From Priapulus caudatus (taxonomy: Eukaryota > Priapulida > Priapulimorpha > Priapulimorphida > Priapulidae): DNA of 64,000 nt. Position 1 is the stretch's first letter; every line of letters starts with the position of its first letter. The DNA is taken from contig NW_014578153.1 in NCBI RefSeq assembly GCF_000485595.1, forward strand, positions 9,131 through 73,130, written 5' to 3'. Positions 4,340 to 60,360 of the stretch are shown one piece after another. The notes under the pieces are model-generated. The model was not told the DNA's origin and ran no database searches. It saw nothing but the letters and a program-made list of their open reading frames with translations. The position numbers and the translations under genes are program-made.

Positions 4340-4473
4340 TACGATGTACGTACACACGCACGCACGCACGCGTACTTGCACACGCACGCACACACTCATG
4401 TACGCACGTGTACGTGCACACGCATGTGTACGTGCACACGCACGCACGCGCGCACGTGTACGTGCACACGCAT

Positions 4474-4507
<34 letters not shown>

Positions 4508-5532
4508 CTACGTGCACATGCACACGCGCGCACGCACGAACGTGTACCTGCACACGCGCGCACTCACGCACGTGTACTTGCACACGCACGCACACTCATG
4601 CACGCACGTGTACGTGCACACGCACGCATGTACGCACGTGTACGTGCACACGCACGCACGCACGCACGTGTACGTGCACATGCATGCACGCACGCACGCA
4701 CGTGTACCTGCACACACACGCACGCACTCACACATGCACAAGTGTACCTACACAAGCACGCACGCACGCACGAACGTGTACCTGCACAGGCGCGCACACG
4801 CACGCACGCACGCACGCACGCACTTACGCACGTGTACCTGCACACGCGCGCATTCACGCACGTGTACTTGCACACGCACGCACACACTCATGCACGCACG
4901 TGTACGTGCACACGCACGCATGCACGCACGTGTACGTGCACACGCACGCACGCACGCACGTCTACGTGCACATGCATGTACGCACGCACGCACGTGTACC
5001 TGCACACACACGCACGTACGCACGCACGCACACATGCACACACGTGTACCTACACAAGCACGCACGTACGCACGCACGCACGTGTACGTCCACGCGCACG
5101 CACGCACGCATGCACGCACGTGTACGTGTACGTGCACACGCACGCACGCACGCACGTCTACGTGCACATGCATGCACGCAGACGCACGCACGTGTACCTG
5201 CACACACCACGCACGTACGCACGCACGCACACATGCACACACGTGTACCTACACAAGCACGCACGCACGCACGCACGCACGTGTACGTCCACGCGCACGC
5301 ACGCACGCATGCACGCACGTGTACGTGCACACGCACGCATGCACGCACGTGTAGGTACACACGCACGCACGCACGCATGCACGCACGTGTACGTGCACAC
5401 GCACGCATGCACGCACGTGTAGGTACACACGCACGCACGCACGCATGCACGCACGTGTACGTCCACACGCACGCATGCACGCACGTGTAGGTACACACGC
5501 ACGCATGCACGGACGTGTACGTGCACACGTAT
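4340..5532. repeat. 1.2-kb ACGC-type tandem array (clean copy)
   Basis: Tetranucleotide ACGC repeats interspersed with GTGTACGTGCAC and GTGTACCTACAC words, giving an irregular higher-order pattern: the words ACACATGCACA and CCTACACAAGCACG recur near 4730, 5030 and 5230. Nearly every step alternates purine and pyrimidine. The long ORFs in all six frames (Thr-His-Ala-Arg repeats) are by-products of a stop-free 4-base repeat and are not genes. Confidence 0.9.
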
Positions 5533-35164: not shown

Positions 35165-36120
35165 TACTTTTGGTAGTAAATAGATTTCATATTTATTTGC
35201 GTCGTGGCTATTCTTACGACCAGTCGTAACAATTATTTATGGACTATTCTTACGACGTGCCAACACATGATACTACGCATATCAACTTCCGCATCAGACT
35301 TTCCGTTTATCAAGGAATGATGGCAAAAAACTAACCCTAGCCTCAATCCCAATGCTAAAATCCAACCCTAACCCTAACACTAACACTAACACTAAAATAT
35401 AAACCGACTAAATCATTTATATATATACGGGTATTGTATCGCAAACACTATCTATGGTGTATGTTGCATGCCGTAAGATAGTCCATAAATAATTACCTAT
35501 TTACCTACAATATTTATTAGCATTATATTTTTATTGAAACCGCCAAGTGCCTGTGACTGCTACTGCGTGAAGTCGAACTTGGAGTCATAGTGACTCATGC
35601 TCTACAATTACATGCGGCTTTTAAACGGAGGAATTGCTCCGACCTGTGATTTGAAGATAAAAAATAGAATTCGTGACGTTTCTCAAGTCTGTCAAGACAG
35701 GGGCGTAGCTAGGGTGAAATGGATGTGTACGCACAGAGGCGGGGGTCTGGGGGTCCTTCCCAGAAAATGGTTGAAAATGTAGGTCGCAGGAGATGGTATT
35801 TGAGGCGCTTATGAGTAAATGTACAGCCTTCATTCTGACTACAAACAATTATCTTTTAGTAGAACTATTCTCTTCATGAGCAACAATATGTGATCACTAA
35901 AGATCACTATAACTAATCAGTAATTTTCGTTTTATTATCAAGACATGTAACTAACGCACATTCTTAAACTCTCTTCTTTCTCTCTCTCCCTCTGTGTGCA
36001 TGCGTACGTGCGAGCGAGCATATGCACTGTTGGGCGCGTGTGTGTGCTCAAACGCACACATCACTCATTGCACATCACATCACATCACGGCATTGTTTAA
36101 GTCACGTTCATTATTCAATG
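35165..36120. repeat. Arm A, flank of BEL2 (inverted)
   Basis: Reverse complement of 40655-41600. It contains a telomere-cored inverted-repeat element (35229-35507), the GACCTGTGATTTGAAGAT region shared with 22990-23060, and a CAGGGGCGTAGCTAGG terminus at 35699. Confidence 0.75.
35229..35507. mobile_element. Telomere-cored MITE, family T1 (arm A copy)
   Basis: Inverted ends AATTATTTATGGACTATTCT and its complement near 35480-35505. The centre (35336-35397) is CCCTAA-like with variants CACTAA. The arm B copy is at 41268-41540. Confidence 0.7.
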
Positions 36121-41267: not shown

Positions 41268-41540
41268 ATAGGTAATTATTTATGGACTATTCTTACGGCA
41301 TGCAACATACACCATAGATAGTGTTTGCGATACCATACCCCGTATATATATAATGATTTAGTCGGTTTATATTTAGTGTTAGTGTTAGTGTTAGGGTTAG
41401 GGTTGGGATTAGCATTGGGATTAGGGCTAGGGTTAGGTTTTTTGCATCATTCCTTGATAAACGGAAAGTCTGATGCGGAAGTTGATATGCGTAGTATCAT
41501 GTGTTGCACGTCGTAAGAATAGTCCATAAATAATTGTTAC
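41268..41540. mobile_element. Telomere-cored MITE, family T1 (arm B copy)
   Basis: Inverted ends AATTATTTATGGACTATTCT; the core at 41377-41440 has GTTAGTG units grading into GGGTTAGG. Inverted counterpart of 35229-35507. Confidence 0.7.
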
Positions 41541-41892
41541 GACTGGTCGTAAGAATAGCCACGACCAAATAAATATGAAATCTATTTACTACCAAAGTAC
41601 TCTCTACTCTCTTTCACCTATTATTGCCGACAATTTCCTGTAAATGCCGTCCAAATGCTCATCTGCAACACACGCTGGCTGCCGCACGCTAGCTGCTGCC
41701 CGCTGACACATAAATACAAGTGCCGCGGAGCGACAGCGCTCATCTAACGTCTACTGCGGTGACTCTGTGGTGGAGTGGTGGGATTCTAGTAAACCCTGTT
41801 AGTCCCAAATGTGTCCACATCCCCGCCGAAACAGTGGAAGGCACAGGTATTGTATCAGGAACCTTCTGAAAGGAATGTTTGTTGGAATCGTT

Positions 41893-42336
41893 NNNNNNNN
41901 NNTATTGATACACTCCTGGTATTATAGCAGCTATAATACTAATATTACTAATATACTAATATATTAATATACTATATTTAATATATATTAATATATTGGT
42001 ATAAATATTATATATATATATATATAATAATATATATATATATATATCATATAAATCATATAAATCATATTTTATATATAAATATATAATATTTATATGA
42101 TCCTTGAACCCATATGAGTATATATTATAATAGTAATTAGTATACCGGTATATAATATATATACTACAGTACATGTATATAATACTAATAAGTAATATAC
42201 TATTACTAGCTGCCGCTATAGCTATAGTATAGTATAGTGACAATACTCAATACTCAATTTCAATACTATGGTCTATAGACTATACTATAGTCTCGACAAT
42301 GGTCAATGGGACAATACTCAATAGTCTACTCTATAC
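41893..42336. other. 10-N gap and AT microsatellite
   Basis: Ns at 41893-41902, then TA-rich sequence with ATATAT runs (about 41940-42245). No coding region; the remaining exons of the gene at 42337 are not seen here. Confidence 0.7.
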
Positions 42337-42408
42337 CTCAATAACACGTTCTTTCTTTTTCTCCACTGTCTTTTTGCTTGGACCAGTATCTTTTTTCTTT
42401 GGTGGCAT
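42337..42408 (-). CDS. ZC3H15: Probable ZC3H15-like first coding exon
   Basis: On the minus strand, ATG at 42408 opens a 24-codon exon reading MPPKKK, then DTGPSKKTVEKKKERVIE, and then a GTATAG donor in phase 0. This start (Met-Pro-Pro-Lys-Lys, a Lys-rich stretch, and Ile-Glu before the intron) is the N-terminus I know for ZC3H15/DFRP1, a CCCH zinc-finger protein that binds and stabilises the translation GTPase DRG1. The zinc fingers themselves lie in later exons, which should be at lower coordinates but are not found between the gap at 41893 and this exon. The call rests on a short Lys-rich peptide plus the splice position, so it could be another MPPKKK-starting protein. Confidence 0.5.
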
Positions 42409-42989
42409 TTTGAAGGCTAATAAACTAGCTATGTGACGATCGAGTGTTACTAACGAAATCTTAATTACGAAACACCTAAACCTAACACTTCACTCATATG
42501 ATATGGAAGTTGTACCACGATGGGAAGAAAGTGGTAGCGCGAGCATTAGCGTCTGCTTCACTTGTCACGTATTATATTATTTTAGTAATTATATATTTTT
42601 ATTTTATCAAAAAACAATGATTTAATATAAAGTTCTATGTGGGAGAAAGCCGATATCAACTGTGTTGCTGCGTGACAAATAATTTACTAATTTAACAAAA
42701 TAAATTGGAATAGCAGACTCTCTCACGTGAATGGTCTTTTGTTTATCAATGAGCATCATCTGCTTCACTACTGCCACTGGCAATATCGTGAATGCGTATT
42801 TTATAAGCATATATACCTAGGCTATTATACGTAACGTGCTAGTAGTACGTAACTAGCAAATGAACGTATACATCTAATGGACGCGTGTTGGGTTAAGGTA
42901 ATGGATCTAGGCGTCAAGGGCCGCATATATTGAAATATCAATCAATTCGCAGTGCCAGCATCACTGGCACACTGCACACACGGCCCAAT

Positions 42990-43170
42990 GATAGAGAACA
43001 GGGGTCCCAATAAAACCAATGTGCCTAAACCTAACCCTAACCCTAATTCTAAATTAACCCTAACCCTAATCCTAACCCTAACCATAATCCTGACCTATTA
43101 TATTGATATAATATTATATTTATATTGATGTAAATGACATTGGTTTTATTGGAACCCATGTTCTCTATCC
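42990..43170. mobile_element. Telomere-cored MITE, family T2
   Basis: Inverted ends GATAGAGAACANGGGTCC and CCAATAAAACCAATGT with their complements at 43140-43170. The core (43028-43088) is CCCTAA repeats with variants, followed by an AT palindrome. A second copy is at 59810-59998. No clear target duplication was identified. Confidence 0.85.
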
Positions 43171-43738
43171 TTGAACCGCACACACTGATTAGGAACGTGA
43201 CAATGTAGTGCGCAGCGCAGCTTGAAAAGTAACAGTGTGACTGCGCCAGCAATTACGAGGACGGAGGGGCACCCCCTAGTAAAAGAGAGGGTTCTGATTG
43301 GTTCTATGGTGTTTTCCCCACTACGTCATAACTATGAGAGCATTGAGGACTCGGCCGACCATCTTTAAAAAAAATTCGAAATTCTGCTACGTTTGATGAT
43401 CGTACGAGCTACTTTAAAGTTAGACTTATATTGAGGGACTGTTTAATACAGATTGCAAGTTTTGCATCTCCTAAAAAAGTATCTGCATCATTTCTTTAAC
43501 ATCTTAACTTGTTTTTGGTGAAATTTTATGGAAATCTGATGATGCGAAAGTTGTAATTTTTTTCCCGGAATGTTGACTCTGTGGAATTTTTGCCTAAATC
43601 CCCGCCGCCTACCGTGTCGCTGCGACGCTGCGCACATACAGTAACATAGATACAATAATGTAACCCAAACCCAAGAGGATACCTAGGGTTACAAAGTCTC
43701 CCTATCCTTTTCTGCGGAGGAATGCCCGAGTGAATCAA
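43171..43738. other. No gene recognised
   Basis: Mixed sequence with short ORFs only. TTACGAGGACGGAGGGGC (43250) and the Gly-Arg ORF at 43526-43738 minus are not convincing. Confidence 0.4.
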
Positions 43739-44179
43739 GGATGCAAATTAACAGTGGCAGAGCAAATAGTGATGATGTTGTCAGCATGGGGAAACATATT
43801 CATTGACATGATGGTGATGAGGACTTTGACATGTTTGATTCGCTCAATCGCACGTCCAACGTGGATACAGATGCCAGCAAGCTTTCTCGTTTTTTCGACG
43901 TCTCTCTGACTCGACTGTTTCTGCATGGCCGCGAGTAAATGCTAATATTAAAAGGGATGCATTTCTTGCTGCTGAATCCTCACTTATAAGAAACCCCCCG
44001 TTAGCTAACACTAAGTCACGATACTCAATAAGATCCGAAAATCATAATCTCTGTGTGATTACATTGTCGGATGTTCGACCACCACATACACGTGACATAA
44101 AAATCACCAACCCAGTTGGAGATATATATACCCACAATTTGCACAAAGATTTTGAAAGTGTTATTGTGCTTGTGATTTG
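43739..44179 (+). pseudogene. Possible broken coding remnant
   Basis: One frame (43738-43937) encodes SGRANSDDVVSMGKHIH, a TGA, then DGDEDFDMFDSLNRTSNVDT and SKLSRFFDVSLTRLFLHGRE before TAA. A second frame (43935-44179) is open for 80 codons without a Met (NANIKRDAFLAAESSLIRNP, then LCVITLSDVRPPHTRDIKIT). The switch of frame at the point where the first stops suggests one gene broken by a frameshift. I do not recognise it, and it may be chance. Confidence 0.25.
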
Positions 44180-44497
44180 ACCATGTCTAGGCACGACTAG
44201 TTAGGTTGCCATGCAAGTGCGCTCAATAAACACCTCGGCACAATCAATGATTACTCTAGCATCTGAATAACGTGACCCCCTAAACAATTTTGGTAATGTA
44301 CACTGAACATCTTGCTTGTCAGACCAATGGATCAAAAATGCTAACTTGCTGGCCAAAATTTCCAAGTCGGCAAACTATTATATGTGCGGAACGAATGGTG
44401 GTAACAAGTTAAATATGTAATTTCACATCATGCACTTGCCTAATAGTAATAATCTAATATAACATGAAACAGGGTAGTATTGCTTTCATCTATTACT
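44180..44497. other. No feature recognised
   Basis: AT-rich non-coding sequence. Confidence 0.4.
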
Positions 44498-44558
44498 ATA
44501 GCCCGCGTACAGTGACTGCCGCAGGCAGTCATTGCGGCAGTCACTGTACGCGGGCTAT
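44498..44558. repeat. Perfect 26-bp inverted repeat with 9-bp loop
   Basis: Left arm 44498-44523 starts ATAGCCCGCGTACAGTGACT; right arm 44533-44558 is its exact complement. The loop GGCAGTCAT repeats part of the arm. A strong hairpin, perhaps a minimal foldback element. Confidence 0.9.
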
Positions 44559-45036
44559 GCCTATACTATATATAGTACTAGAGCTATCATCTATATAATA
44601 CTATTACTAGATTGTGTTTCACTGGATATTTTGATTTACTAGGTATTCTATGAAATGAAACACCTTTCCCCATTCGATGTCGATCACTACATCCTATTAT
44701 AACGCATTATAAAATGGCTCGGATATTTTATGCATCATGATTGGTCAAAACGCGTCACGTGACACGCCGTTGTTGTTGTTATAATGCACGCTAAACCGTG
44801 TAAAAAAGCGCGCAAAAAAAAGTTATATTGCACGCTCGCGATTATGTTAACATTTACAATAATTTTAAAAGCATCAAACTGAAATTTTCGAGATGTAGAT
44901 TTACTATTGATTTTCTAGATTTTCTAGACTATTTATCTAGACTGTTTATCTAGACTTACTGTTAAATTGTTATAGTGTGTGTCAGAAAATAAATAGTAAG
45001 GCTAGATCTCGAAAATTTATTCCAGCCCCGAAAGTC
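44559..45036. other. No gene recognised
   Basis: AT-rich. Contains repeated TTTATCTAGACT words (44925-44955). No coding region. Confidence 0.4.
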
Positions 45037-45127
45037 AAAAACAAACACATTTACAGTTGATTAAATTGCAATTTAATTTTAGCTTTTATTAATAGCAATT
45101 TAATCAACTGTAAATGTGTTTGTTTTT
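45037..45127. repeat. Perfect 33-bp inverted repeat overlapping the transposase stop codon
   Basis: Left arm 45037-45069 and right arm 45095-45127 are exact complements (AAAAACAAACACATTTACAG at the outer end), with a 25-bp loop. The right arm covers the last codons and stop of the transposase. It may reflect local inverted duplication of the 3' end. Confidence 0.85.
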
Positions 45128-46368
45128 ATAAAACACATAGGATTCTAGTCCCTGTGGCCTGATCTGGTCATCATTTGAACCATCGGCTGTCATAAGGCAG
45201 CCAGTTTTCTCAAACAGTTTCTTGCATAGGCCTTTATTAGTTGAGAGTTCCCTCCAAGCCTGAGCAGTCCACTGTGTCATGAGAATCCGTCTTCTTTTGG
45301 CACTTAATTTATCATGCCATTCCTCTAAATTAGCCTCTTTCTCCAACCACCCTTCCATTGCCTCTCCTACTTTAGACTTTATCAATTTCCCATACCCAGC
45401 ATCTATAGGCTGTACCTTGTCAGTTTGGTTCTCTGGCAGGAGATAGACAATAGCATTTATTTCCTCCCTGCAGGCCTCATGAAATTGCTTTACCTGCTGA
45501 AATCCAACATTGTCAGCGAAAATTACTTTCTCGTTTGGTGAGTTGCCTACTCCAGGTAGTAAAGTTCCAGATACCCATTGCATGTTTATTTCAGAGTCCA
45601 TCCAAGCACATCTCTGGAAATACACATCCACGTCTCTATCATACTCTGCTCTTACAGCACTAGACACGTTGCCTTTACCCCTAAACACAATAGCTGGCTT
45701 CACACGCTGTTCCCCTTCTGCCCGTATACAAAGCTGAAGAGTGGCCTGCCTCTTATCCAGACCAGTTGAGGGCTGAGAAACCCACACCTGCTTGTTGCCT
45801 GTGACATCATAGGTTTTATCCTGATCAACCACGAAAGGGAGGGGGACTTGATCAATGTTATATCTATTCTCTGGAGACCAACGCCCATATTTAGCATCCA
45901 AAGTTGAACTACTTCGCCTTCTCCTCGACTTTACCGCCTTTCGCAAATTTCGGTGAAATCTTTGAATGGTTTCACGCCCATCATCTGCAGAATTCTGCTT
46001 CTTGTTTGATCTGTGTCGAAACGAAATGTTGTGGCGCTTCTTAAATCTTTGAAACCAGTTGCTGCTTCCTCTGAATTTAGCAGCCTCTTCTTTTCCATAA
46101 CATAGCTCAATATTTGCTTTCATCTTCTGTTTTAGCCAAAGCTTTGATACTTTACAGCCGTTGGCTCTGCGAAGCTTGAATTCAACCATTAGACGCTGGG
46201 CAGCTAATGGATACTTCTCGCTTTTCTGTGCTTTCTCGTGCACAAGTTTCCTCCTTTGTCGTGCCGCCTTCACACCTCCTGCGTTTTTCTTCCTCTTGTT
46301 GAGGTCAAGTTCCGCCCGCAATTTGTCTCTGTTCTTGTTCCACTTTATTACAAGCGACGTACTAACGC
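45104..46368 (-). pseudogene. pogo/CENP-B-type transposase, C-terminal part
   Basis: The frame encodes the second half of a helix-turn-helix (GVSTSLVIKWNKNRDKL), a CENP-B-like DNA-binding region (about residues 80-155 of the local frame, WLKQKMKANIEL, SSNWFQRFKKRHNI) and a DDE_1-type catalytic domain: NIDQVPLPF (first Asp), IFADNVGFQ (second Asp) and VQPIDAGYGK (third Asp), giving a DDD triad as in pogo/Tigger proteins. It would cut and rejoin transposon ends. The frame is uninterrupted to the stop at 45104, but a 461-bp insertion at 46369 separates it from its N-terminal exon, so this copy is disabled unless the insert is spliced out. No transposon inverted termini were identified around it, so a domesticated gene is also possible. 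Confidence 0.8.
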
Positions 46369-46829
46369 CAGGGGCGTAGCCAGTATGTAGCACTGTAGGC
46401 CCGGGCCTACACTTTTTTTGGCCAATTAAGTTATCTTTTTTTTTTAAACACCCATAATTCAAATCCATAAGCTTGCTGGACGAGTTTAAGAGTCTAGGCA
46501 GGAAAAACTATTGAAATGAACGTAGCAAGAAACTACTCTACCCGCCGAAAAAGACTAGGATCCATTCTTGTCCGTTTTTTAACATTTTAACTCGTTCGTA
46601 ACACTATTTTAACTCGTTTGTGTTTTTTGGGTTTAAAAGTGATATTGAATTAGTTGTCTCAAGTTAGCAAGAGGTCAGGGAACCAGAATGAACACTCGGG
46701 AAGGGCCGTTTCCGGCCATCTGGGGGTTTGTAAAACCAAAAATTTTCTTGTACGCTCCGCGCCAACCGATGGTGGCGCTCCGCTCAGATAGTCGTGCCTA
46801 CAACTTTCAAAATCCTGGCTACGTCCCTG
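46369..46829. mobile_element. 461-bp hAT-like MITE with AACGC target duplication
   Basis: The ends are CAGGGGCGTAGCCAG and CTGGCTACGTCCCTG, one mismatch in 15. AACGC flanks both sides (46364-46368 and 46830-46834). Removing it and one duplication restores the transposase reading frame exactly at the helix-turn-helix. Confidence 0.88.
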
Positions 46830-46834
46830 AACGC

Positions 46835-47318
46835 CCCTTTCTTCTGCAACCTTTTGCCACTTCTTCTTAGTCTTTGTTCCTTTGAGGGAATCTAGGAGTT
46901 CGATAGTTTTTACCTTAAATTCTACTTTATAGGATTTCCTCTGATTACGGCCCCGTCTGTTGTCAGGTTTCTGGGGATTTCTCTTGGTCTCTATAGTTAT
47001 TTCGTCGTTAGTTTCTTCACCTTCTTTGCTGGTTGCCTTTTTCGCATGCAACTCGGTACTCTTCGATAAACCACTATCGACATGGTTATTACAGAACGAC
47101 GAATCTTTGCCAAGGTTGAATAGATTAGAGTTATGCTTGAATCGAACGTGGGTTCGAAGGTACTTTTCTGCCGTGAACAATCCATTGCAAATCTCACATT
47201 TAACATGTTTCTTGGGCAACTCAATGGACTTTGGTAATGTTGCTGTAACATCCAACAATCGACCGTTCCTCGTTTCCACTTCTCTCTTGATCCCACAGTC
47301 AAATAAAGTTCGATTCAT
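46835..47318 (-). pseudogene. Transposase N-terminal part with C2H2 zinc finger
   Basis: MNRTLFDCGIKREVETRNGR opens the frame, followed by one C2H2 finger (CEIC, 12 residues, H, 4 residues, H), an Asn/Lys/Glu-rich linker with bipartite basic motifs (nuclear import likely) and the start of a psq-type helix-turn-helix (YKVEFKVKTIELLDSLKG, KKWQKVAEERGV). It is in frame with 46368 downstream once the MITE and duplicated AACGC are removed. The frame is open upstream of the Met (to about 47376), so the true start may be further 5'. A paralogue of this part is at 47692-48021. Confidence 0.75.
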
Positions 47319-47394
47319 TTTCTTGTAGCATTCCTGGACATTGCCAAAGTCGAACTGTAAGCGTTGCTTGTTTGTTTTGGTAACTAGGTGGTTA

Positions 47395-47598
47395 CAGGGG
47401 AGAGATAGTGATCCGCTAAATGGCGCATTATTAGTGTGTTGTGGATATAGAAATCAGTTAACCCTAACCCTAACCCTAATCCTAAACCTATCCCTAATTC
47501 TAAAATAAAACAAAATTAGCCAAAAATAATAAAAAATAAATATGAGATAAAATTAGCCAATCAGAGCCGTCCCCTAGCGGATCACTATCTCTCCCTTG
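47395..47598. mobile_element. Telomere-cored MITE, family T3
   Basis: The ends are CAGGGGAGAGATAGTGATCC and its near-complement CGGATCACTATCTCTCCCTTG. The core at 47459-47502 is CCCTAA repeats. It lies between the two C2H2 paralogues. Confidence 0.8.
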
Positions 47599-47691
47599 TG
47601 CAAATTTTTTGAAAGACTGACCGCCTTCTTGCTTTCAAATACTGTAGTCGATTTTTTAGAGCTCACGTTTCGTCTTAAAGCTTCACCAACT

Positions 47692-48021
47692 TCAACGCTT
47701 CATCCAGAAGATTGCAACAATAGTCGATGCATTCCTAGATTCTGAGCCATTGCTGTTCGAGTTCTGTTCAGCAGAAGCTGGTTGTTTGAATTGTACATGG
47801 GTGTCCAGATATTGTTGACCTGTGAACGATCTGTCGCAGTGTTTGCATTTAACTGTGGCGCTGCTCAGTTTAACTGTCTTTTCCAATGTTGTTGTAATGT
47901 CATACAGTCTGCCATCCTTCAACTCTACTGATTTTCGTAAACCACAATCGAATAAAGTACGATTCATCTTCCACAACTCATCAAAATTCCAACGAGAGTC
48001 ACTTCTTTTTCCCGATCCCAT
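47692..48021 (-). pseudogene. C2H2 paralogue of the transposase N-terminus
   Basis: ATG at 48021 opens MGSGKRSDSRWNFDELW, then KMNRTLFDCGLRKSVELKDG, aligned with 47318-47100. The finger reads CKHC, 12 residues, H, 4 residues, Gln: the last zinc ligand is Gln, not His, and the frame ends soon after. No helix-turn-helix or DDE region follows, so it is a truncated duplicate. The two genes are in tandem, same strand, with a MITE between them and another upstream. Confidence 0.65.
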
Positions 48022-48074
48022 AATACCTTGCACGCCCAAATTACCCAAAAGGCATTTCGAGTGAGGGAAGCACC

Positions 48075-48302
48075 CGGCAGTTAGATGCGATATTATATGA
48101 CTACTAGGCACTTAGGATATGACTACTAGGCACTTAGGATATGACTACTAGGCACTTTAAAAAAAAAAAAAACCCTACCCTAACCCTAACCTAACCTAAA
48201 CCCTAACCCTAACCTAACCCTAACCCTAACTTTTTTTTATTTAAAAAAAATTAAATTAAATTAAAGTGCCTAGTAGTCATACAATATCGCATCTAACTGC
48301 CG
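48075..48302. mobile_element. Telomere-cored MITE, family T4
   Basis: 39-bp inverted ends starting CGGCAGTTAGATGCGATATT with one mismatch between the two. The left half has three tandem GATATGACTACTAGGCACTT units. The core 48165-48232 is CCCTAA repeats beside poly-A and poly-T runs. It lies between the C2H2 paralogue (minus) and the HIRAN gene (plus). Confidence 0.88.
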
Positions 48303-48387
48303 AGTGCGTGAGGGAAAGTGAAGCTTCCATCTTGAATTTCTCTTGGGGAAAGTCAGCTTTCGGCACAAATCAAACTATAAGTATAAA

Positions 48388-48804
48388 ATGGCAGATGAAT
48401 ACGAAGTCTATGTTCAGGCAAGCGTGCGTGGGTACCATGCCTATTTTAAAGATTCAACGGTGTATATTGGGGAAGTTATGGACTGCGAGATGGAACCGGA
48501 GAATGACCATGACAGTTATGCATTGGCCGTAAGAAATAAAGACGAGAAGATTGTTGGACACTTACCAATCGAACTATCCGAGATTTTTCATATGTTTTTG
48601 TCAGAGCATATGGGCAAATTGAGGCGGAATGTATTGGCAGTAGATTTAACACAGGCCAAGGTAAAGGACTTGAGCTTCCAGTTGACTATAGACTTTAAAT
48701 TGTTGGGAATGCTCTACTTGAGAAAGCTGATTACAAGGTTACAGAAGAAACATGAGAAAGAAGGGTCAGATTGGAAAATCAGTGACCTACGAAAATGTGT
48801 TTGA
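48388..48804 (+). CDS. HIRAN-like domain protein, intact intronless ORF
   Basis: A 138-residue protein. ATG at 48388 is preferred because the in-frame start upstream (48343) adds a non-conserved stretch. It reads as one HIRAN-like domain: the opening YEVYVQASVRGYHAYF, then VYIGEVMDCEMEPENDHDSY, ALAVRNKDEKIVGHLPIELS and a C-terminal basic helix rich in Lys/Arg. HIRAN domains (also in HLTF and Rad5) bind 3' ends of DNA or damaged DNA; short stand-alone versions with this VRGYH...EPxNxHDxxAVAV pattern are common in some invertebrate genomes, with unknown role. The usual Rad5/HLTF helicase and RING parts are absent. The frame has no defects, unlike its neighbours, suggesting it is in use or recently so. 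It sits divergently to the transposase genes with a MITE in the 5' interval. Confidence 0.7.
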   Translation: MADEYEVYVQASVRGYHAYFKDSTVYIGEVMDCEMEPENDHDSYALAVRNKDEKIVGHLPIELSEIFHMFLSEHMGKLRRNVLAVDLTQAKVKDLSFQLTIDFKLLGMLYLRKLITRLQKKHEKEGSDWKISDLRKCV

Positions 48805-48907
48805 TTTACCATGAAAACTAGAACAGTTCAACTGAAAGGTCAGGAGTTCGGAGTTGTAAAATTAATAAATTTAATGTCAGCATGTTAACGTTGTGTCTGC
48901 AGCAAAT

Positions 48908-48992
48908 TAAAAATGTGATTGACAGAAGGTAAGAGTCATTTAGTTTATACATCAATTAGCCAAGTCTAAAAACAGTTGCTAAATGTACCCTG
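48908..48992 (+). repeat. First copy of an 84-bp direct duplication
   Basis: AAAAATGTGATTGACAGAAG and following bases recur at 49362-49444. Together they bracket the family T5 MITE and about 150 bp of unique sequence. Confidence 0.8.
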
Positions 48993-49140
48993 GAAATTCC
49001 CATGTACCTGCTGCGAAACTCTATATGTGCAATGCCTAGCACATAAATTCTTCGTACTGTATGCTTATAATAATATGCTGTATGCTATATATGTATGCTG
49101 TATGTACTTAGTAGCCTACTGTACACTTAGTAAAGCAGAT

Positions 49141-49348
49141 GGGGTCGTTGTCATGTCAGGTACTACAGATATGTACCCGAGATAGTTTTAGGTTGTTTAG
49201 TATTATGTTTATATTTTTATATGAGGTGTGTTTAGGGTTAGGGTTAGGGTTAGGGTACACTTCTGTAGTACAAGTCTGGTACACTTTGTGTATACATATC
49301 TATGTACCTCGGGTACATATCTGTAGTACCTGATACGACAACGACCCC
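49141..49348. mobile_element. Telomere-cored MITE, family T5
   Basis: Inverted ends of about 42 bp starting GGGGTCGTTGTC and including TCAGGTACTACAGATATGTA, with two or three mismatches. The core 49231-49256 is four GGGTTA units. The only family here in TTAGGG orientation besides the 41268 copy. Confidence 0.85.
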
Positions 49349-49361
49349 TTCAGCCTTAGTA

Positions 49362-49444
49362 AAAATGTGATTGACAGAAGGTAAGAGTCATTTAGTTTAT
49401 ACATCAATTAGCCAATTCTAAAAACAGTTGCTAAATGTACCCTA
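49362..49444 (+). repeat. Second copy of the 84-bp direct duplication
   Basis: Matches 48908-48992 with one or two changes. Confidence 0.8.
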
Positions 49445-50113: not shown

Positions 50114-51806
50114 CCTGGGGCCGGATTCATCAACGTTGCGTAAAGTGTATTGCGTACACCGAGTTTCTACGAAGTACGTACGCAAAGCTCGTAGGTGCGA
50201 TTCATCAACGCAGCGTAGCACCTGCGTACGCAAATGTTGATGAATTCCAGTGTAAATCCACTACGCCATCGTGGCTGCTGGCTGTTGAGAGGCGTGCCTA
50301 GCATAAACCAATCACACTGTGCGACACATACCGATAGGAACCAAACTGACGCCTCTCTGTCTACATGAGTGCTGGGGGATGTGATAGTGTCCACATTTTC
50401 GTTTGTATGATTGCGTTCAACACTCGTGAAAGCAGCGACACGTACACATGCGTGCGTGCGTGTGTACGTACACGTGCGTGCGTGCGTGGCTGCGTGCGTG
50501 TGCACGTACACGTGCGTGCGTGCGTGCGTGCGTGCATGTGCACGTGTGCGTGCGTGTGTGTGCACGTACACGTGCGTTTGCGGTGCGTGTTGGCACGTAC
50601 ACGGTGCGTGCGTGCGTGTGTACGTACATCGGGCGTGCGTGCGTGTGTACGTACACGGCGTGCGGTGCGTGCGTGTGTACGTCACACGTGCGTGCGTGCG
50701 TGTGGAACGTACACGTGCGCCGCGTGCGTGATGTGCACGTGTGTGTGCACGTACACGTGGCGTGCGTGCGTGTGCACGTACACGTGCGTGCGTGCGTGAG
50801 TTTGTATGTACACGGCCGCGGCGTGCGTGCGTGTGGCAGCGTACACGTGCGGCGTCGGCGTGGCATGTGCACTGCGTGGGCGTGCTGTGTGCAAACGTAC
50901 ACGTACGTGCTTGTGGCAGCGTACACGTGCGTGCGTGTGTAACGTAGCACGGGCGTGCGTGCGTGTGCAACGTAGACGTGGCGTGGCTGATTGTGGGGCA
51001 GCGTTGTGCGTGGCGTGGCGTGCGTGTGTACGTACACGTCGTGCTGTGCGTGTGTACGTACACGTGCGTGCGTTGCGTGTATGCGTGGGCGTGGTCCGTA
51101 CACGGTGGCGTTGCGTGCGTGTGTACGTACACGTGCGTTCCGTGCGTGTGCACGTGCGTACGGCGGTGCATGTGCACGTGCAGGTGCATGTGTGTGTGGC
51201 AGTACACGTACGTGCGTGCGTGCGTGCGTGTGTACGTACAGCGCGTGCGTGCGTGTGCACGTACACCGTGCATGCGTGCTTGTGCACGTGTGCGTGGCGT
51301 GTGGCACGTACACGTGCGTGCGTGTACACGTAAACGTGCGTGCGTGTACACGCGCGTGCGTGTGCACGTACACGTGCGGGCGTGTGCACGTACAGGGCGG
51401 CTAACTACGAACTCGCTTATAATGCAAAACAATGCCAAGCTATGACAAAAGAGCGTCAAAGGCGCCGCCTGTCTGTGTAGTATGGTAATTATTTATTAAT
51501 TTTTTAGTTGAGTAGTCAATTTATAATGTTTTCTCAATAAAATAATGTATGCTGCGGTATGCTGGAAACACCTTGCGGAAATTTCGAGTGGTTTACGGCA
51601 CTCGTCAGCTCGTGTAAAGTTCGCAAAGGTTTACGTGTAAATTTTAGCTTGATGAATCGCACCTAAAACGGCCTCGCTTGCGTACGCGAATCGTACGCAA
51701 TTAGCTAATATAGCTGTGTTGATGAATCGCAACTAAGCAACGTCGATTGCGTACACAAGCTTTACGCAAAATATTTTGCGTACGCAGCTTGATGAATCTA
51801 CCCCCT
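50114..51806. mobile_element. 1.7-kb TIR element with a GTGC array inside
   Basis: Imperfect inverted ends with GGATTCATCAACGTTGCGTA on the left and, complemented, AGATTCATCAAGCTGCGTAC on the right. Subterminal TTGATGAATC and TACGCAA words repeat inside both ends. The core is a noisy GTGC array. Terminal boundaries and target duplication are not certain. Superfamily unknown. Confidence 0.65.
50436..51398. repeat. Noisy GTGC (ACGC complement) array
   Basis: GTGCGTGC and GTGTACGTACACGTGC words with many single-base disruptions. It is the reverse-complement type of the arrays at 4340 and 12885. ORFs across it are artefacts. Confidence 0.88.
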
Positions 51807-58990: not shown

Positions 58991-59809
58991 GTCGGCCTGA
59001 TGAATACGATGGCCGTGACAATGAAATGGGGGAGAGGAGTGGATAATTTTTTGTTCAATTTCATGAAAGAATAAATCTCTAAGAATACACCAAAGAGTTC
59101 TGTGTCTCTTTTCATAATACTAGCTGAAACCTGCGCTAGGCGCAGGCTTAGTGACTGTGATGCATGTGTTACCAGTACAGTAGTGTTATGTGTAAGGTGT
59201 TACCGGGTATATGGAGAGTTTAGTTGTTGCACATGTTTTTTTTTTATGGTTGAGATATGTCAATAGAAATACATGTACATGCAATCATGCTAGCTTACAC
59301 GTAACACATTAACCATTTGTTTGGCAAGTACACAGTGAAATAAACACACCCACACAGAAATGTTTTATTGTATGCTATGTACTGGTTGATGATACGGAAT
59401 CCAAAGTTAGAATATAGATAGATCTGAATCAGTGAATGGGCTGGTAGGTCGGGCGACTGATTAACCTCTTGGCTGCGTAGCACATAAATTAATATTACGT
59501 GCTTCGCATGTTTCCACTGTGTGCGGACCATGTCATATTGCGTGGTTGTGATGGCTTATTTCTACGCATGTTTGCACTCTGTGCGGACGACGTAATATTA
59601 CGTGCTTGTGATCGGACTGCTTGTGACAGCTCGCTGTTCACGACACCCGCACAGCATAGCAGACTTCCAAAAAAAAAATCTGCTCTGATGAAATTCAACT
59701 TGTACATCTCATATGGGAAACTATGGCGAAATAGCTACTGAATATTTAACTTCATTATTACATGGTTCGATCTACTTACGTTATTGGGCTTACAAAAATC
59801 TCGGCCCAA

Positions 59810-59998
59810 GGATAGAGAACATGGGTCCCAATAAAACCAATGTCCCTAACCCTAACCCTAACCCTAATCCTAACCCTAACCCTTACCATAAGCCTAACCA
59901 TAAGGCATAACCATAACCCTAACCTATTATATTGATATAATATTATATTTATATTGATGTAAATGACATTGGCTTTATTGGTACCCATGTTCTCTATT
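59810..59998. mobile_element. Telomere-cored MITE, family T2 (second copy)
   Basis: GATAGAGAACATGGGTCCCA ends and a CCCTAA core (59849-59925), about 190 bp, closely related to 42990-43170. Both are preceded by CGGCCCA. Confidence 0.85.
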
Positions 59999-60360
59999 TT
60001 TGACCCAAAATCCCAGACACACAGACACAGAACAAAACGAAATACAAACAGAACGAAAACAAAACAGCGCCCCCTATTTTTAGGCAAATATTTACCTTTT
60101 TTAAGACCGAACAAACGATTTTCAACCGAGTATAGTTTAGAACCCGTCCAGTGTATTCATCGATCTCTTCTGTGAATTTGGCGCTATTTGGATCCAAACT
60201 GACGGAGCCTTTCATTAACATACATACATACAACATTCGCCAAATTATAGTAAGATGATGATCATTGATTCGGACCTGTAAAACCTAGTGTGGGCCAGTG
60301 AATTATACATTTCACAGGCCCGCAGGGCCAATGAGGGTTGAAGTTTTTCATGCAGACTGA

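Follow-up and report, generated by a model that had tools for sequence, protein, structure and literature searches.

Elements at the locus

We examined a 64,000-nucleotide stretch of the Priapulus caudatus genome (contig NW_014578153.1, positions 9,131 to 73,130 of the forward strand; hereafter the window, numbered from its first letter) that contains short elements in which terminal inverted repeats (TIRs) enclose an array of the telomere-type hexamer TTAGGG/CCCTAA. A preliminary description of the window had listed seven such loci in five families. All seven show both arms and core: an inverted-repeat scan found complementary arms of 25-58 bp (the 58 bp counts the target site duplication, TSD, of element E), and the cores hold two to six exact hexamers each, plus variant units. 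The three exact (CCCTAA)3-type runs in the window, starting at 47462, 49232, and 59844, all lie within these elements.

Five TIR sets are present: A and B twice, and C, D, and E once each. Copy 1 of A occupies 35231..35494 on the minus strand, with arms of about 35 bp and a CCCTAA/CACTAA array at about 35340-35395; copy 2 occupies 41274..41535 on the plus strand, with arms of 34 bp and a TTAGTG/TTAGGG array at 41373-41437. On one side, the two copies show 95% similarity along the 330 bp that extend from the edge of the core to beyond the arm, and since no TSD was found at A (copy 2), this element may belong to a larger repeat. The first B copy (42982..43177, plus strand, arms of about 42 bp, core 43024-43095) is bounded by a perfect 8-bp TSD, GCACACAC, at 42974-42981 and 43178-43185, and the second (59803..60006, plus strand, core 59844-59924) by AAAATCTC/AAAATCCC, 8 bp with one mismatch. 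Element C (47394..47599, plus strand) has arms of 25 bp, a core at 47459-47504, and no TSD. Element D (48070..48307, plus strand, arms of 44 bp, core 48171-48230) carries 22-bp tandem repeats at 48095-48157 and a perfect 9-bp TSD, GTGAGGGAA, at 48061-48069 and 48308-48316. Element E (49135..49354, minus strand, arms of about 50 bp) has four TTAGGG units at 49232-49256 as its core and a perfect 9-bp TSD, CTTAGTAAA, at 49126-49134 and 49355-49363. TSDs were found at four of the seven loci: both B copies, D, and E.

Open reading frames (ORFs) nearby include a DDE_1/Tc5-type transposase-like ORF at 45104-46507 (minus strand) and a HIRAN-domain ORF at 48322-48804 (plus strand). Over 88% of its length, the transposase-like protein is 100% identical to one annotated in Priapulus caudatus. 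Element C overlaps the upstream end of a minus-strand ORF (46659-47453), and element D stops 15 bp before the HIRAN-domain ORF. The window also holds a perfect 26-bp palindrome at 44498-44558 (ATAGCCCGCGTACAGTGACTGCCGCA), parts of which recur by eye at three other loci (L045, L062, and L063; loci are cited by L numbers) as another short repeat family, and two long minisatellite blocks, rich in CACG/TGCG and oriented oppositely to each other (4355-5529 and 50440-51324).

Telomeric arrays across the genome

The assembly (385,217,808 bases, with long N stretches) contains 4,536 + 4,479 = 9,015 exact matches to (CCCTAA)3, compared with 2 + 0 for the reversed control; array starts without a preceding A number 695 + 780. 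The first 100 matches listed fall in 44 arrays, from which we estimate that about 4,000 arrays are to be expected in the genome. These 44 arrays, on contigs C1, C2, and C3 (up to 774,688), constitute our census. We scored an array as bounded by inverted repeats (IRs) if the local alignment between its flanks reached a score of at least 16. This applies to 31 of 44 arrays: 24 of the first 36, then L008 with wider flanks, then six of a further eight. The count takes one tandemly duplicated F element twice and the two arrays of L047 separately, and includes the first array of L045, whose arms are those of another repeat and whose left half has no match in the fetched sequences. Control rates at the same score were 6% for random sites in the window (n = 600), 13% for mismatched flank pairs (n = 500), and 16% for other sites at the same loci (n = 679), the last two being inflated because families are shared among loci. 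Most interstitial arrays in the census therefore lie between IRs.

Eight further census arrays (L001, L005, L031, L032, L033, L034, the second array of L035, and L043) have no scored IR but show homology to a family or module, giving 39 of 44 that are IR-bounded or family-homologous. Resemblances seen by eye of L007 to G and of L054 to F did not beat shuffles and were removed from this count (41 to 39); L007 retains a single 40-bp match to G. A second set comprised 20 arrays, taken as every fourth after C3:774,688 among starts without a preceding A and biased accordingly. IRs bound 13 of them, and another six have a family match (L085, L087, L088, L090, L091, and L094), 19 of 20 together. L088 did score as an IR element, but is of low complexity and was left out of the IR count. 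A third set, 12 arrays hand-picked for G or C before the array as a means of finding families rather than as a sample, contains 11 that are IR-bounded. Over the three sets the proportion is 55 of 76. A random-stretch control contained neither an array nor a qualifying IR element in its 11.8 kb of non-N sequence (36 kb fetched, of which 24.2 kb N), too little to be informative.

Some arrays have other surroundings. L101 is a long degenerate telomere-like run without inverted repeats, unlike the element cores. At L032, a complete match to U2 spliceosomal RNA (positions 1763-1954, E 3e-38) adjoins the array, and L033 compared with L032 shows 92%-95% similarity on both sides of its array, so the array may lie within a U2 locus that is itself repeated.

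TIR families and target site duplications

We labelled 18 TIR sets (A-K, M, N, O, P, R, S, and U), and one more is nested in L057, about 18-19 in all; C, H, I, P, and U were seen only once. The pattern first described for five families is thus more general, although the family count needs care, since the large family F is a relative of E, and no TSD was found for A or C. The TIRs of 16 families (S and U, found later, were left out) were compared in 120 pairs with 300 shuffles each. E/F and G/O scored above every one of the 300 shuffles, whereas one shuffle did as well as K/O, one as well as P/R, and five as well as G/K. Among the best 14 of the 120 pairs, none joins two of the window's families A-E; these are represented by E/F only, F being outside the window. 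The five TIR sets of the window show no detectable relation to each other, and several TIR families do share a telomeric core, as had been proposed. Neither of the outcomes named beforehand as fatal to that proposal, most arrays lacking flanking IRs or the TIRs falling into one family, was observed.

The elements have TIRs around a short interior, TSDs in several families, and a uniform structure over many copies: the arm of B has 588 genome matches at two mismatches or fewer (control, 0), and F provides 11 of the first 36 census arrays. Judged by these features, they are best explained as putative non-autonomous TIR elements, namely miniature inverted-repeat transposable elements (MITEs), of many families and with a TTAGGG/CCCTAA array in the interior.

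Perfect TSDs are of 8 bp in B (eight of 20 copies) and in N and M (one each). Three of four S copies have them, two of 8 bp and a third of 9 bp. Perfect 9-bp TSDs occur in D (two of three copies), in E (the window copy, L112, and L057), in a form combining features of E and F (L042 and L094), and in R (one of two); in F, three of nine copies have perfect TSDs of 9-10 bp. No convincing TSD was found for A, C, I, K, O2, P, or U among the copies examined. Lengths of 8-10 bp would agree with Mutator-like elements (MULEs), and the 8 bp of B and S would also fit hAT. An F and a G element (second array of L009, and L034) both contain a small palindromic insertion (AGAGCATATAAATCAA...).

Common descent has to be considered here: one or a few ancient MITEs with telomeric cores might have given rise to all families, the arms diverging past recognition while the core stayed recognizable. 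The relation between the E and F arms and a poly-T arm motif common to G, K, and O are in its favor, as is sub-terminal sequence that U shares with D. The arms of the remaining groups, however, have no detectable relation, and perfect TSDs are of 8 bp in B and two S copies as against 9-10 bp in D, E, F, and R. This second objection is limited in force: one Mutator-like transposase can produce both 8-bp and 9-bp TSDs (PMC5225508), so that TSD classes alone do not prove different transposases.

Inheritance of the core in family B

Among 100 listed matches to the B arm, all exact, we picked 20 copies by place, blind to the core. Telomeric units are present in the core of 19 of these; 17 have both arms matched by script, L063 has a gapped arm, and L078 has a 2.6-kb element inserted in its core. 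The other copy, L062, has a single arm and no telomeric unit. We also compared core lengths within this family, as the preliminary description had suggested, using 18 cores caught by pattern (16 arm-picked copies and the two in the window; L061, L067, L078, and L041 were not caught). Lengths range from 14 to 146 bp and 12 of the 18 equal 2 modulo 6, a recurring frame. The first unit is TGCCTAA in 17 of 18, and 11 of 18 end in CCATAA-CCCTAA. With its place, orientation, and variant pattern constant, with 19 of 20 arm-picked copies carrying it, and with its length often shifting in 6-bp steps, the B core is inherited within the family. For F-type cores, 16 of 29 strings equal 5 modulo 6 in length, the rest starting at another prefix or having indels, and the arrays run from two or three up to about 22 units.

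The preliminary description had considered that telomere repeats are added at hairpin tips or breaks. Each family would then have gained its core separately, as telomerase healed such sites or telomeric DNA filled them. This would account for a core in so many families, and insertion of telomeric repeats at breaks has reportedly occurred in primate evolution. Two copies of R could be taken in the same sense: L051 and L095 have arms that are similar by eye and wholly different inner flanks, with an array in both, which points either to independent acquisition of the array or to replacement of the interior. In 19 of 20 copies, however, the B array has the same position and orientation, with its family-specific variants retained, and arrays are often flanked by modules that other families share (see below). 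Fresh addition is not supported by these observations, and we regard it as quite unlikely, although it might still account for the first arrays.

Telomeric cores may themselves be insertion targets. The element within the B core of L078 has CAGCG-like ends and, by eye, an 8-bp duplication, ATTCTAAC; at L035, a B copy has itself entered a different telomeric array.

Modules shared between families

In 4,548 comparisons between families, we aligned the 110 bp that flank the arrays on each side, retaining matches that scored at least 18 and beat 150 dinucleotide shuffles; 70 comparisons pass. Beyond arm homology, there are three module groups: one on the left of the array in A, M, and U; one on the right in G, K, O, and P; and another on the right in A, R, and O2. 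The shared blocks start 0-14 bp from the array edge. Modules that abut the array are therefore common to families with unrelated arms, and the shared stretch ends at the array, a feature that the preliminary description had not foreseen. The similarity can be extensive: to the right of the array, G (L046) resembles P (L056) at 86% along 304 bp, whereas the left arms of G (L002) and P match no better than shuffles (91 of 200 shuffles were as good).

The links of K, and that between A and O2, are weak in the 110-bp test (z 3.8-6.9) and so depend on the R-O2 match (z 8.6) and on longer alignments of K, which is 66%-71% identical to G, O, and P over about 325-345 bp (scores 93-127, shuffle maxima 34-41). 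Other weak pairs (B with G or P; I with O or G; D with O; pairs with L101, L044, L040, or L110) are AT-rich or repeat-rich and were not counted.

Two loci groups combine features of different families directly. At L035, an M-type flank and an F-type flank are joined by telomeric repeats, within which the B copy lies. At L042, L090, and L094, E-type arms enclose F-type inner flanks of about 16-17 bp a side, and the perfect 9-bp TSDs of L042 and L094 imply that this form transposed as such. Element A has the M-type module to the left of its array and the R/O2-type module to the right. Such one-sided sharing in conflicting groupings is difficult to reconcile with common descent, which we consider unlikely.

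The flanks also bear on whether the arrays are TTAGGG 3' tails of short interspersed element (SINE)-like retroposons inserted into MITEs. A tRNA B-box-like motif can be seen by eye in the right module of G, K, O, and P and in L058, and TTAGGG-ended telomeric Penelope-like elements (PLEs) exist in a fungus (PMC4522978). Against this, ARAGORN (eight loci) and Rfam (six loci, E up to 0.1) detected no tRNA, and the matches of other families to the G-K-O-P module are weak and AT-rich; such an origin is highly improbable. L058 has, next to its array, a tRNA-like sequence with A and B boxes by eye, which neither program called. We also rejected an origin by telomere fusion, which predicts head-to-head arrays: in the census, L047, a palindromic M, is the sole element in which exact arrays of both orientations were seen.

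A proposed role of the array as a joint

We think it probable, by a modest balance, that the array is inherited within families and also acts as a joint for exchange between them, most plausibly by template switching. The role of joint is suggested by the shared blocks that end at the array, over the 110-330 bp beside arrays that the analysis covered. A copy that stalled or broke would switch template to, or be repaired from, the array of another element; the resulting combinations of arm, module, and core could be amplified by transposases supplied in trans. In yeast, forks slow at interstitial TTAGGG repeats and the repeats expand (PMC9272169). TIR elements of the Pack-TIR type gain interiors by template switching and then transpose (PMC8277862). 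More tentatively, and with doubt prevailing, telomere-repeat arrays might serve the class II elements of this genome as a general recombination joint, template switching among the estimated 4,000 or so arrays reassorting arms and inner modules and producing new MITE families by core exchange, perhaps across transposase types.

Several observations weigh against an exchange at the array. Array variants are family-specific (CCTAA units in D; CCATAA/TTCTAA in B), so exchange does not homogenize the arrays. Replacement of arms around an old core, leaving the array unbroken, could also yield the sharing of modules. The E/F form may be an intermediate lineage and not a hybrid, because the E and F arms are related and the F-like flanks are short; this, together with the production of both TSD lengths by one transposase, lowers the probability of the joint and raises that of common descent. 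Five of the 44 census arrays (L007, L040, L044, L054, and L058) lie in no demonstrable element. The assembly is rich in gaps, which two census arrays adjoin (L043 and L054), so that single junctions such as L035 and L045 could be misassemblies. Sampling by the arm, independent of the core, covers B only. Finally, we identified no autonomous partner, no search having been aimed at MULE or hAT transposases.

Telomeric cores are, moreover, not general to IR elements. With at least two exact units as the threshold, 7 of 10 IR elements in the window (complex arms, 100-620 bp) have such a core, a share biased upward because the window had been flagged for telomeric cores. Outside it, in 30 fetched loci with the focal arrays excluded, one of four non-focal IR elements does, giving 8 of 14 qualifying elements in 165.7 kb. 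These numbers are relevant to selection, by which the core would aid propagation (through binding of telomere-repeat proteins or fork delay, for example) and hence be kept or enriched. The share in the window and the retention of the core in 19 of 20 B copies would be expected under selection, but the low share outside it would not, nor would B copies that have TSDs with just one or two units (L061, L066, and L074). Selection, which is compatible with a role of the array as joint, seems an improbable explanation.

The usual account of MITE origins is internal deletion within a single autonomous element. Here, MITE interiors appear to pass from one family to another, a simple repeat serving as the joint. 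MITEs are also a source of interstitial telomeric DNA besides chromosome fusion or break healing, which matters for the reading of telomere signals in fluorescence in situ hybridization.

Comparison with known systems

A search of the literature (titles and the starts of abstracts, mostly open-access) returned no report of MITEs with telomeric cores and no paper combining Priapulus, telomer-, and TTAGGG. Arrays inside chromosomes and of variable length are typical of interstitial telomeric sequences; unlike those, most of the arrays sampled here are inside TIR elements. Telomeric PLEs and Terminons are likewise transposable elements with telomeric repeats, but they are retroelements with the repeats at their ends, located at telomeres (PMC6431247; PMC4522978), whereas the elements of Priapulus have TIRs and internal arrays, and no telomeric repeats at an element end.

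Animal Mutator-like derivatives (Muta1, Aedes) resemble the present elements in having TIRs, TSDs of 8-9 bp, arms in common around interiors that are heterogeneous, and subterminal tandem repeats (PMC5225508); the likeness is one of TIR and TSD structure, and the interior is telomeric here. Pack-TIRs and Pack-MULEs also place a new interior between TIRs and then transpose, but that interior consists of host gene fragments (PMC8277862), in place of which we find a telomeric array and modules shared among element families.

The closest parallels are MITEs with tandem repeats: Pearl/CvA of bivalves, Xstir on Xmix of Xenopus, miDNA4, and the lepidopteran (GTCY)n mobile microsatellites (PMC9659126; PMC6947457). 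These too are short TIR elements through which a tandem array spreads. The likeness to the Pearl type is in one feature, TIRs around a tandem-repeat core. Since MITEs of that build were already known, the kind itself is not new. What differs from these systems, and is new, is the telomere hexamer as the unit, its recurrence across some 18-19 TIR sets within a single genome, and the sharing between families of modules that abut the array.

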